IMG/VR virus record: IMGVR_UViG_3300032286_000723
Coordinates: 1-30,774 of that record
Source: a virus
DNA length: 30,774 bases
Reading direction: 5' to 3' (one strand)
In this document: piece by piece, positions 3,987 to 30,774 of the stretch
How positions within the stretch are numbered: the stretch's first letter is position 1
Layout of the letters: each line of letters opens with the position of its first letter
Notes under the pieces: generated by a model
The model's database searches: none
The model's input: the letters and a program-made list of their open reading frames with translations, nothing else
Told to the model about the DNA's origin: nothing
Program-made: the position numbers and the translations under genes

Positions 3987-4384
3987 GAAAATTCAAATGC
4001 AGATTTGGAGTCAAAGGTTGTCCACATGAAAGACATTTTGCATTTTCAGACTGGATGAGAGAGAATCTGCCGGACTCAAAAACCGGAATGCAAATTGTGG
4101 ACCTGGACTTTGTCATTTATAACTACAAGACAAAAAAACTATTGATAGTTGAACAGAAACTATTCAAAGCAAAGTATGATGGTGCAAATGTAAACTTTGC
4201 ACAAAGAGAATTCTTGATGTTGGTCAAAAAAGTATTCAGTCAACTCAAAAATGTGAAAGATGGATGGGAATTTCTTGATGTACATCTCATCCAGTTTGAT
4301 GCATATGATTTCAGCACCGGCAAATGCTACCTTGACAACAAAGAAATATCTGAAACCGACCTTAAAAACTTTCTATCCATATGA
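3977..4384 (+). CDS. Predicted PD-(D/E)XK-fold nuclease-like protein
   Basis: A 135-residue protein. After a Cys/His-containing start (CRFGVKGCPHERH) comes VDLDFVIYNY...KLLIVEQKLF: Asp42/Asp44 on one strand and Glu59-x-Lys61 on the next, the arrangement of the restriction-endonuclease-like catalytic core. A helix follows (FAQREFLMLVKKVFSQL), as usual in the fold. The natural role could be end processing or recombination with ERF, but substrate and activity are inferred from this short motif. Two starts are possible: ATG 3977, or ATG 3983 which overlaps the upstream TGA as ATGA. The stop overlaps the next gene. Confidence 0.65.
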   Translation: MEMRKFKCRFGVKGCPHERHFAFSDWMRENLPDSKTGMQIVDLDFVIYNYKTKKLLIVEQKLFKAKYDGANVNFAQREFLMLVKKVFSQLKNVKDGWEFLDVHLIQFDAYDFSTGKCYLDNKEISETDLKNFLSI

Positions 4385-4791
4385 AACCACATGAAAGAAT
4401 TGATTCTATAATAAACATAAATAAATCAATTTATTGCATACCATGTATTGAACATCCATTTCTTATCACAACTCAACAATTGTCTCCATTTGAGGTCATT
4501 GACCTGGCATGTGAATTCTTAAAGTTGAATCCAAGTGATGTGATATCAAAAAAAAGAGACCGGAATCTTGTTGATGCAAGACACATGATTGCTGACCTTT
4601 TATACAATGATGAGTTTCTCAATCTGTCTTTGAAAAATTGTGGTGAAATTCTTGGTGGAAGAGACCATTCAACCATTCTTAATTCAAGAAAAATTATAAA
4701 AAATTTGATTTTTTCATATCCTAATTTCAGAGAAAAATTATTTAAATTGCATTTGTATGTGTATCACACATCAGACTATTTCAACCATTAA
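4381..4791 (+). CDS. Stand-alone DnaA domain IV-like DNA-binding protein
   Basis: A 136-residue protein whose central part (about 35-112) matches the C-terminal DNA-binding domain of DnaA: a helix (PFEVIDLACEFLKL), the basic loop KKRDRNLVDARHMIADLL, and the diagnostic signature GGRDHSTIL at 92-100. In bacterial DnaA this domain reads 9-bp DnaA boxes in the origin. The AAA+ ATPase domain III is absent, so the protein can at most bind DNA; it may mark or mask origin sequences or recruit host factors. The start overlaps the preceding stop (ATGA). It sits directly before the initiator-like gene that contains a candidate origin. The identity of the domain is firm; the function is inferred. Confidence 0.88.
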   Translation: MKPHERIDSIININKSIYCIPCIEHPFLITTQQLSPFEVIDLACEFLKLNPSDVISKKRDRNLVDARHMIADLLYNDEFLNLSLKNCGEILGGRDHSTILNSRKIIKNLIFSYPNFREKLFKLHLYVYHTSDYFNH

Positions 4792-4805: not shown

Positions 4806-5555
4806 ATGGCAGACAACACATTCTATTTCTCACACGATTACAACACAAGACTGGATGACAAAATTAAAGACTTGATATATCAACATGGATATCTTGGCTA
4901 TGGATTGTACTGGGCATTGGTTGAAGACTTATACAATAATGCCAACGCATTGCGACTAAATTATCAACGCATTGCTGATGATTACAAGACAACACATGAT
5001 GTGATTGATAGCATCATAAATGACTTTGACTTGTTTATATTTTCAGAGAATCATTTCCATTCAAAATCAGTTGAAAAGAGACTAAATCAGAGAGAAAGTA
5101 AATCCATAAAAGCAAGAGAATCAGCACAAAAGAGATGGAATAATGCAAACGCATTGCCAACGCAATCCGATGGCATTGCTATAAAGGAAAGGAAAGGAAA
5201 GGAAATAAAAGAAAAGGAAATAATTATAAGTGTTGAATTGCCATTCAACACCATTGATTTCTTTAATAAATGGAATGAATGGAAATTGTATAAAAAACAA
5301 CAACACAAATTTTCTTTCAAGACCGGCACAACCGAAAAAACTGCATTGAATAATCTTGTAAATTTATCAAACAATGATGTTCAAATTGCAATTGAAATAA
5401 TTAATCAATCCATTGCCAATGGATGGAAAGGATTTTTTGAAATTAAAAACAAAACCAATGCAACAAAACCAGTTAATGAAACAAGATTTGACAAACGAAT
5501 TGAGTATGCAAACAGATGGAATCATGCAGATATTGAAATCAAAGAGAATATCTGA
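4806..5555 (+). CDS. Replication initiator-like protein (Lin1244/Lin1753, DUF4373-type N-terminus)
   Basis: A 249-residue protein. Residues about 5-50 (FYFSHDYNTRLDDKI, YGYLGYGLYW-type motif, here GYLGYGLYWALVEDLY) are the hallmark of the Lin1244/Lin1753 N-terminal domain found in phage replisome organisers. A charged Lys/Glu linker (127-138) follows, then a helical C-terminal part (NTIDFFNKWNEWKLYK, LNNLVNLSNNDVQIAIEIIN) like DnaD-type domains. It probably binds the phage origin and starts assembly of the host replisome. NNANAL occurs twice (44-49, 112-117), encoded by repeated DNA considered a candidate origin. ATG follows an ACCAAAAACATATC leader. The next gene starts inside its last codons. 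Confidence 0.82.
   Translation: MADNTFYFSHDYNTRLDDKIKDLIYQHGYLGYGLYWALVEDLYNNANALRLNYQRIADDYKTTHDVIDSIINDFDLFIFSENHFHSKSVEKRLNQRESKSIKARESAQKRWNNANALPTQSDGIAIKERKGKEIKEKEIIISVELPFNTIDFFNKWNEWKLYKKQQHKFSFKTGTTEKTALNNLVNLSNNDVQIAIEIINQSIANGWKGFFEIKNKTNATKPVNETRFDKRIEYANRWNHADIEIKENI
4944..5220 (+). other. Candidate replication origin: iterons plus purine tract
   Basis: AACGCATTGC occurs at 4944-4953, 4966-4975 and 5148-5157, with partial copies AACGCAAT at 5159 and GGCATTGC at 5172. The first two are 22 bp apart, about two helical turns. A strongly asymmetric purine tract of repeated GGAAA units runs from 5183 to 5220, followed by the AT-rich TAATTATAAG. Iterons followed by an asymmetric A-rich tract, all inside the initiator gene, is the layout of the lambda origin in gene O. 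Function is inferred; no origin assay is implied. Confidence 0.5.
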
Positions 5556-6216
5556 TTGTACACCAAGAGAAATCATTGAAAAACTATCCATCATTTACAT
5601 GCTGATTGGACTGAGGCCACAACATTTTCCAACTCAAGCCGAAGATGTTTTGATTTTGACTTTCATCAAGAAACATTTTGGACACAAAACAATTGATGAA
5701 TTGTACCTGGCATTTGAGTTGGCCGTTACCGGTAAACTGGATGTTAAAGATGTCAAAGTGTATGACCAATTCACAATTGAATATCTGATGAGAATCATGA
5801 ATTCCTACAAAACATGGTTGATTGAGAAAGCAAAAGAGAAACATCAAATTTCAAAACCAAATATGCAAGAATTGCCACCATTGACACAACAAGACAAGAT
5901 TGATGAAATAAATGAATGGAGAGCAAAAGAATCAATTGATTTCAAATTGATACCAATTTATCTATTTGACTGGATGTTTGAATATGGATACATCAAAATG
6001 ACTGATGATGAAAAGATTCAATTCTATTCAAGAGCCATCAAAATGAGAGAATACAGATTGAGAAATGAGGCAGAGATGTTTGGTGGAGACAAAACAACAT
6101 ACCGGAATTTCATGAAGATGAAAGCAAACAACTTTCAAGACATCACAAAAGATGAAGAGTTTCAGATTGATAATATTTACAGAAAGATTGCAGTATATGA
6201 ATTCTTAAAAAAATAA
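5524..6216 (+). CDS. Replication-associated protein, possible helicase-loader position
   Basis: A 230-residue soluble protein. The N-terminal half has ISDCTPREIIEKL and FPTQAEDVLILTFIKKHFGHKTIDELYLAFELAVTG (about 5580-5730), a helical pattern I associate with uncharacterised replication proteins of Bacteroidetes phages. The C-terminal half is rich in charged helices (KIQFYSRAIKMREYRLRNEAEMF). There is no Walker motif, so it is not a DnaC-type ATPase. Immediately downstream of the initiator it occupies the place of lambda P, the helicase loader; this is position-based inference. ATG 5524 overlaps the upstream gene by 32 bp; a non-ATG start at 5413 would double the overlap. Confidence 0.68.
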   Translation: MQILKSKRISDCTPREIIEKLSIIYMLIGLRPQHFPTQAEDVLILTFIKKHFGHKTIDELYLAFELAVTGKLDVKDVKVYDQFTIEYLMRIMNSYKTWLIEKAKEKHQISKPNMQELPPLTQQDKIDEINEWRAKESIDFKLIPIYLFDWMFEYGYIKMTDDEKIQFYSRAIKMREYRLRNEAEMFGGDKTTYRNFMKMKANNFQDITKDEEFQIDNIYRKIAVYEFLKK

Positions 6217-22238: not shown

Positions 22239-22826
22239 ATGAATGCAAAAGAAATAATTGAAAAACTGAAAATCACCTTCAATGAATTGGTGAAAAATGC
22301 AGAAGTGCCACAAGCACCAACAACTCCATCTGCCATTCCACCGGTTGCACCGGAAATGACAATGCCAATCAAAGGCAAGTTGAAAGATGGAACAGAGGTT
22401 GAGATTACTGAATTGCAAGTTGGTGGAATTGTTACAATACAAGGAACACCGGCACCAATTGGAGAGCATGAAATGGAGGATGGAACAATCATTGTTGTTG
22501 GAGATAATGGAGCAATCATGGAAATCAAAATGGCTGATGGCACAATGCCACCAATGGTTGAGGATATGGGAGCAAAATTCTCTGCATTTGAAAATACAAC
22601 AAAAGAAAAGTTTGCAAGTTATGAAACAAAGTTTGCTGATTATGAGGCAAAATTTGCAACATATGAGGCAAGATTGAACAAAGCAACTCAAGTGATTGAA
22701 GGACTTTTGAATCTGACTCAAACTCTTGCAGAGACTCCAACTGGAACACCGGATGCATCAGTAAAAACAAACAACAATTTCAAAATCGAAAAGAAAGAGA
22801 TGTCATATGATATCTTGTTTTCATAA
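22239..22826 (+). CDS. Probable capsid scaffold protein
   Basis: A 195-residue protein, directly between the protease and major capsid genes. The N-terminal part is Pro/Ala-rich (PQAPTTPSAIPPVAPEM), the middle has a small beta region (GKLKDGTEVEITELQ; DGTIIVVGDNGAIMEI), and residues about 118-147 contain three heptads of the form FAxYExK (FASYETK, FADYEAK, FATYEAR), a coiled coil. Scaffolds typically have a coiled coil and a basic C-terminus that contacts capsid; here the end is IEKKEMSYDILFS. The gene is 27 bp ahead of the capsid gene. Assigned by position and composition. Confidence 0.72.
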   Translation: MNAKEIIEKLKITFNELVKNAEVPQAPTTPSAIPPVAPEMTMPIKGKLKDGTEVEITELQVGGIVTIQGTPAPIGEHEMEDGTIIVVGDNGAIMEIKMADGTMPPMVEDMGAKFSAFENTTKEKFASYETKFADYEAKFATYEARLNKATQVIEGLLNLTQTLAETPTGTPDASVKTNNNFKIEKKEMSYDILFS

Positions 22827-30319: not shown

Positions 30320-30774
30320 GGTCAATCATTATTGCATTGATTCTTTGTTCATGCTATTCACCAAAGAAAGCAGAGAAACAACTCATCAAGGCACAACTCA
30401 CACATCCGGATGTTGTCGCAAAGAAAACATCTGAATGGTATCCATGTGTAATAAGCCAACCATCAATTGACTCATCGGATGTCAAAAGATGGTTGGCAAT
30501 TATTGATTCATTGAATAATGAAATCAACTTTGATATCATTGAAATAAATGACACAATAAAGTTGACAGATACAATCAAGGATTCACTTGCCTACAAGTAT
30601 TGGTTGAATAAATACAAAACTAACCAACAGATGATTTCCAATTTGAAAGTATTGTTGTCATCAAAGGTTCCAACAATTTATAAGACAATAATGATTTCAG
30701 ACTCTGCCAGGTCATTGCAACTTGCAAAAGAAATTGAGCAATTGAAAGGTGACAAAAATAAATATCAAGGCAAG
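30316..30774 (+). CDS. Spanin-like lipoprotein, N-terminal part (continues at 1-92)
   Basis: The frame begins with a lipoprotein signal: RSIIIALIL then CSC, where Cys13 preceded by Ser is the likely lipidated residue (Cys11 is also present). After the cleavage site come about 140 mostly helical, charged residues (KKAEKQLIKAQL; TIKLTDTIKDSLAYKYWLNK; ARSLQLAKEIEQLKGDKNKY), consistent with a periplasm-spanning rod. The frame is open at the right edge. Joined through the 8-bp repeat it ends in a transmembrane helix (see 1-92), total about 180 residues: a unimolecular spanin. ATGA overlap with the holin-like gene. The alternative is an ordinary lipoprotein truncated by the window. Confidence 0.75.
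   Translation, partial: MRSIIIALILCSCYSPKKAEKQLIKAQLTHPDVVAKKTSEWYPCVISQPSIDSSDVKRWLAIIDSLNNEINFDIIEINDTIKLTDTIKDSLAYKYWLNKYKTNQQMISNLKVLLSSKVPTIYKTIMISDSARSLQLAKEIEQLKGDKNKYQGK
30767..30774. repeat. Terminal 8-bp direct repeat, right copy
   Basis: AAGGCAAG, identical to 1-8. In the lipoprotein gene this end reads in frame (...CAA GGC AAG); with one copy removed the next codons at 9 onward are TTT GAA AAG TAT TTG ATG, continuing the frame to the stop at 90-92. Confidence 0.6.

Follow-up and report, generated by a model that had tools for sequence, protein, structure and literature searches.

The window analysed here, that is the whole stretch of 30,774 bases of a virus record, carries phage genes, among them those for a terminase, an Erf-like annealing protein and a lysozyme. 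Its two ends, 1-8 and 30767-30774, are identical (AAGGCAAG), which is possibly the remnant of a terminal repeat from a circularly assembled or permuted genome, or a matter of chance. At 22607-22666, inside the gene at 22239-22826, a 21-bp unit, AAAGTTTGCAAATTATGAAAC, is repeated in tandem in three copies; since 21 bp correspond to seven codons, they probably represent a protein repeat. The features of the locus encoding the replication initiator are collected in Table 1.

Table 1. Genes and proposed origin elements at the initiator locus (window coordinates)
Feature	Position	Strand	Description
Stand-alone protein with DnaA domain IV (DNA-binding)	4381..4791	+	PF08299, E=9e-13; directly upstream of the initiator gene
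Initiator gene	4806..5555	+	249 aa; Lin1244_N domain and matches to phage replication-initiation families
Iteron cluster, likely auxiliary	4935..4976	+	AATAATGCCAA, AACGCATTGCG (4944) and AACGCATTGCT (4966, 22 bp on); in the region coding for the DNA-binding domain
Iteron array with 11-bp pitch, likely core	5137..5180	+	One exact AACGCATTGC (5148), then imperfect units at 5159 and 5170; weaker unit before
C-free, purine-rich, strand-asymmetric tract	5180..5240	+	(AAAGG)n, then AT-rich; proposed DNA-unwinding element
AT-rich, easily melted flank	5241..5319	+	60-bp windows starting at 5240-5260 lie at the 90th-97th instability percentile
Next gene	5536..6216	+	226 aa; only match phrog_26016, unknown function

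The initiator is of the Lin1244/Lin1753 type: its N-terminal Lin1244_N domain (aa 7-85) matches Pfam PF14297 above the gathering score (E=4.1e-10, 40.7 bits against a cut-off of 25). This is its sole Pfam match, while the PHROG matches are 2562, replication initiation, and 678, O-like. In the AlphaFold2 model the pLDDT exceeds 90 in both domains and is about 50-60 in the linker; the confident N-terminal fold reaches about aa 116, the linker, at about aa 118-148, is predicted to be disordered, and a C-terminal helical domain with the pattern KWNEWKxYKKxxHKF...QSIANGWKGFF occupies aa 150-205. The linker is encoded by the end of the repeat array and by the C-free tract. A Foldseek search of the PDB with this model returned nothing below E=0.2, with weak winged-helix matches among others; no close solved structure was obtained, so that the family cannot be told from the fold.

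The protein encoded directly upstream is matched by the NCBIfam DnaA models over their C-terminal part only, and it is possibly part of a replication module. On the other side, the position of the next gene is occupied by a DnaC-like helicase loader in two annotated relatives (EF62phi and a Porphyromonas phage), and the product of 5536..6216 may be regarded as a candidate for such a loader or for another partner of the replisome; among the window genes scanned, none was recognised as encoding a helicase or its loader. DnaA boxes (TTATCCACA-like) are present in the window in no exact copy and in two copies with one mismatch, against 14.8 expected; an origin of the DnaA-box type was rejected, as there is no box cluster and near-matches are rarer than chance. 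GC skew, a check proposed in the first-pass annotation, has no clear switch at 5.2 kb over the window.

The word AACGCATTGC occurs exactly at 4944, 4966 and 5148, always on the + strand and within the initiator gene, and nowhere else in the window; under a first-order Markov model about 0.02 exact copies would be expected on both strands. The first-pass annotation had correctly described three copies in a Lin1244-type initiator gene, the first two 22 bp apart, together with partial copies; the latter are AACGCAATCC at 5159 and ATGGCATTGC at 5170, and a still weaker unit, AATAATGCAAA, precedes the copy at 5148. What it had missed is the array formed by 5148, 5159 and 5170, pitched at 11 bp in the linker-coding region. 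This linker array (5137-5180) is likely the core of the feature and the 4944/4966 pair an auxiliary site.

The array copy at 5148 is read in frame 0 as NAL, the next one, at 5159, in frame 2 as TQS, and that at 5170 in frame 1 as GIA. Because the copies occupy different frames, repetition in the protein does not account for most of the array. The earlier statement that the repeats encode NNANAL twice needs correction: the first and third exact copies both give NAL in frame 0, and the second is read in frame 1 as QRIA. When synonymous codons are shuffled, the lag-11 self-similarity of the linker is reached in 8 of 5000 cases (p=0.0016), and a second design, in which protein and codon usage are also kept, gives p=0.007; for the 4944/4966 pair, at lag 22, the synonymous-shuffle p is 0.003. 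Conversely, some 10-mer is present three times in the gene in 214 of the 5000 synonymous shuffles (0.043), so that the mere count of three is borderline once the protein is fixed, and the 11-bp phasing across frames is the stronger evidence. Direct repeats within the initiator coding sequence exceed the protein requirement, as is to be expected for an origin on the plan of lambda and SPP1.

A coding origin of the pattern was weighed against these data, namely that low-complexity linker DNA (encoding NANA, KERKGKE) expands by slippage and has no function at the DNA level. The linker is indeed predicted to be disordered, charged dipeptide runs are common there, and the first and third exact copies both yield NAL in one frame. 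Slippage of this kind is nevertheless highly unlikely, given that consecutive linker copies fall in different frames and that, with protein and codon usage preserved, an excess is confined to lags 11 and 22; the fixed order of array and tract and the match of the word to the N-terminal domain across unrelated C-terminal domains, both described below, point in the same direction.

Relatives of the initiator were collected from viral contigs, genomes and isolate phages and reduced to 125 non-redundant clusters at 70% identity; these genes are related to one another, and the fractions reported are not independent events. Lag 11 exceeds synonymous-codon shuffles at p<=0.01 in 26.4% of the 125 clusters and lag 22 in 18.4%, the remaining lags reaching the same threshold in 0-7%; of 211 control ORFs taken from these loci, 0.5% pass at lag 11 and 0% at lag 22. 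Amino-acid repeats cannot cause the lag-11 signal, because 11 is not a multiple of 3. When the test is restricted to the linker, lag 11 is significant at p<=0.05 in 45% of Lin1244_N-type genes and in 38% of the others. Lag 11 is the top lag (21%) also among 47 held-out clusters, which have less than 60% identity to those of the first set; the placement of the tract is weaker there, within the expected distance in 6 of 17 cases. With the 5' end of the C-free tract as the common reference point, lag-11 matching rises from about 0.29 to 0.53 between 40 and 10 nt before it, while no rise is present for lags 8, 10 and 12.

In the closest relatives the array is retained at the same place with changed words and codons and is followed by the same AAAGG tract; the words are of the AATGCATTGC type in L004, of the ACCGCAGTTGA type, three times, in L005 and of the ACAGCGGTTGA type in L007. 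Iterons conserved under altered codons, one of the checks suggested in the first-pass annotation, are thus present. It had also held that relatives keeping the protein and not the repeats would speak against an origin; this is not the pattern found overall, although about 60% of the relatives have no significant lag-11 signal in what is a conservative test, and some families may fit it. The arrangement extends to Bacillota isolates, such as the Lactobacillus phages LBR48 and JNU_P2, where TATAGCAATGC-type repeats precede a AAAGGAAAGTAAAG-like tract, and to distant initiators with other N-terminal domains, which have other words at the same pitch, e.g. TGGCAACCAAC, TAAAAGACCCT and CCGGGGTTCAA. 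Members of the window's word group also carry extra copies at about nt 130-190 of the gene, in the region of the DNA-binding domain, where they encode different residues (combined p=2e-4, for relatives that are not fully independent); the 4944/4966 pair falls within this cluster. In another initiator family, GGGGCTT/GGTGC-type repeats near the gene start (nt 109-142 in L064 and nt 61-94 in L075) resemble the linker repeats of the same genes, which suggests a second upstream array.

The tract at 5180-5240, directly 3' of the array, is the longest C-free run of the window, with 61 nt. Markov-simulated sequences have a longest C-free run of about 51 nt and up to 71 nt, and for this reason the length alone is not significant. 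Tandem Repeats Finder describes an AAAGG/GGAAA tract at 5183-5220, with period 5 and 7.6 copies, and the AT content of 5183-5240 is 74% versus 64.5% for the window, in agreement with the GGAAA-repeat purine tract and AT-rich DNA annotated earlier after the repeats. In terms of duplex stability, the 60 bp from 5180 are within the least stable 3% of the window's 60-bp windows and adjoin an iteron array that is comparatively GC-rich; the flank on the 3' side possibly belongs to the unwinding region as well.

Among the relatives, each of the 49 arrays with p<=0.05 has the longest C-free run on its 3' side, and in 71% of them this run starts within -15 to +60 nt of the array (10% expected). C-free runs of at least 40 nt are present in 66% of the initiators and in 11% after shuffling of the codon order; the corresponding values for G-free runs are 2.4% and 1.8%. 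An easily melted AT- and purine-rich tract on a fixed side of the repeats is what the lambda/SPP1 plan implies for an origin. L162, L204 and L206, whose C-terminal domains form a different group, have a GGTTAGGTAAGGATAGGTTAGG-like tract that is not purine-only; the conserved feature may be the absence of C rather than the purine content.

Among 42 arrays, initiators with similar N-terminal domains tend to have similar repeat words (Mantel r=0.34, p=0.0005), and no correlation with the C-terminal domain was detected in the same arrays (r=0.01, p=0.40). The word of the window, AATGCnAACGC, is found again in L156, L161 and L145, whose N-terminal domains are related to that of the window's initiator and whose C-terminal domains are unrelated to it. 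Binding of the iterons by the N-terminal domain would lead to such a pattern; co-inheritance of neighbouring DNA could account for part of the link. In the range L004-L099, a single type of C-terminal domain (KWxxWKxYKKxxHKF...QSIANGWKGFF) is found behind several different N-terminal domains, and iteron words and charged repeat linkers differ between these combinations.

A word that tracks a DNA-binding domain would hold as well for an operator, through which the initiator would bind its own gene to limit expression, with the purine tract merely a coding feature and replication starting elsewhere; iteron-binding plasmid initiators often autoregulate. There is no need for an operator to have a C-free, easily melted tract always on its 3' side (49/49), it would more naturally sit at the promoter, and the precedents in lambda and SPP1 are origins. 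We regard this explanation as very improbable. It may also be supposed that the origin is real and is opened by the DnaA-domain-IV protein, encoded directly upstream, or by host DnaA, the initiator being only a helper. This arrangement is extremely improbable, considering that exact DnaA boxes are absent, that near-matches are fewer than chance and that the word of the iterons tracks the N-terminal domain of the initiator itself.

Computation has shown an array and a tract that keep the same order in relatives, a self-similarity above that of synonymous shuffles and a word linked to the N-terminal domain; the region 5137-5240 is very probably a theta-type replication origin located inside the initiator gene, in the part coding for the disordered linker. 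Origin activity itself is inferred from these data, as are contact of the initiator with the repeats, melting of the tract and recruitment of the helicase, and the following scheme is proposed. The Lin1244_N domain would bind the 11-bp iterons (5137-5180), so that several initiators would line up along the same helix face, one in each turn; the bound proteins would strain and open the adjoining purine-rich, C-free and AT-rich tract, from 5180 onward, and the C-terminal domain would then recruit a helicase loader and the helicase to the opened strand. The cluster at 4935-4976 would serve as an auxiliary initiator-binding site.

With more reservation, we lean towards a broader reading, in which a large number of phage initiators, with N-terminal domains of several families (Lin1244_N, Phage_rep_org_N, DUF1376, DUF6291 and unclassified ones), share a common grammar: linker iterons spaced by 11 bp, one helical turn, across reading frames, and then a C-free purine-rich tract. 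Since the word travels with the N-terminal domain, domain and iterons would form an exchangeable cassette, and the protein sequence of the linker would be dictated by the function of the DNA. If this is true, the origins and the initiator recognition words of many uncultured phages could be read directly from the initiator gene, by a testable rule (11-bp pitch, C-free tract 3', word set by the N-terminal domain). It would explain the odd charged repeats of initiator linkers and would predict which N-terminal domain recognises which word, as a route to a recognition code; it could also lead to minimal replicons for phages of Bacteroidota and Bacillota that are hard to work with.

The lambda/SPP1 plan is already known, while the pitch of one helical turn and its spread over families look new. 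In the open literature searched, no earlier description was found of 11-bp phage iterons or of words set by the N-terminal domain across initiator families, nor any paper pairing 'Lin1244' with 'replication'. In the Francisella phage KIRK a lambda-like origin was predicted in a Phg_2220_C-type replication gene with an internal amino-acid repeat (PMC7924643); this is a prediction on a single genome, made without the 11-bp rule or a comparative test. The Phg_2220_C domain is also found in one relative of the present set. In iteron plasmid origins, such as those of RK2 and F, Rep-bound direct repeats lie beside an unwinding element, and cooperative binding depends on helical phase (PMC4980987); differently from these, the window repeats are within the initiator coding sequence, and the Rep families are different proteins.

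Closer parallels are found in phages. The SPP1 origins consist of direct repeats and an AT-rich element, and gp38 binds the direct repeats of oriL inside gene 38 (PMC6316719). The window shares with oriL, as described there, the direct repeats within the initiator's own gene and an AT-rich element, proposed here for unwinding; SPP1 differs in having a second origin, oriR, about 13 kb away. In lambdoid phages, iterons and an AT-rich region are located in the middle of gene O (PMC7466680). When lambda O was submitted to the same test as a positive control, lags 20, 23 and 24 and an adjoining C-free, A-rich run, AAAAGAAAAAAGAAAAG, were obtained, in agreement with the annotated iterons; TP901-1 rep, a second positive control, gave no significant lag. 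As in the lambda ori, the window has its repeats in the middle of the initiator gene and a strand-asymmetric tract, A-rich in lambda, on their 3' side. Conversely, lambda iterons are annotated as 18 bp long with starts 20-24 bp apart, against a pitch of 11 bp here, and in the window the tract is a run of (AAAGG)n pentamers, the initiator belongs to a different Pfam family and extra copies are present in the DNA-binding-domain region. A strict lambda-type ori, with 18-bp iterons at 20-24-bp pitch and a Phage_rep_O initiator, was rejected on the 11-bp pitch and the Lin1244_N match. Thus, the lambda-plan origin put forward in the first-pass annotation is supported in its layout, the array being 5' of the C-free tract in relatives too, and has to be amended in its spacing; because pitch and initiator family differ, the feature is not strictly a lambda ori, and, as far as the sequence allows, it very probably works like one.
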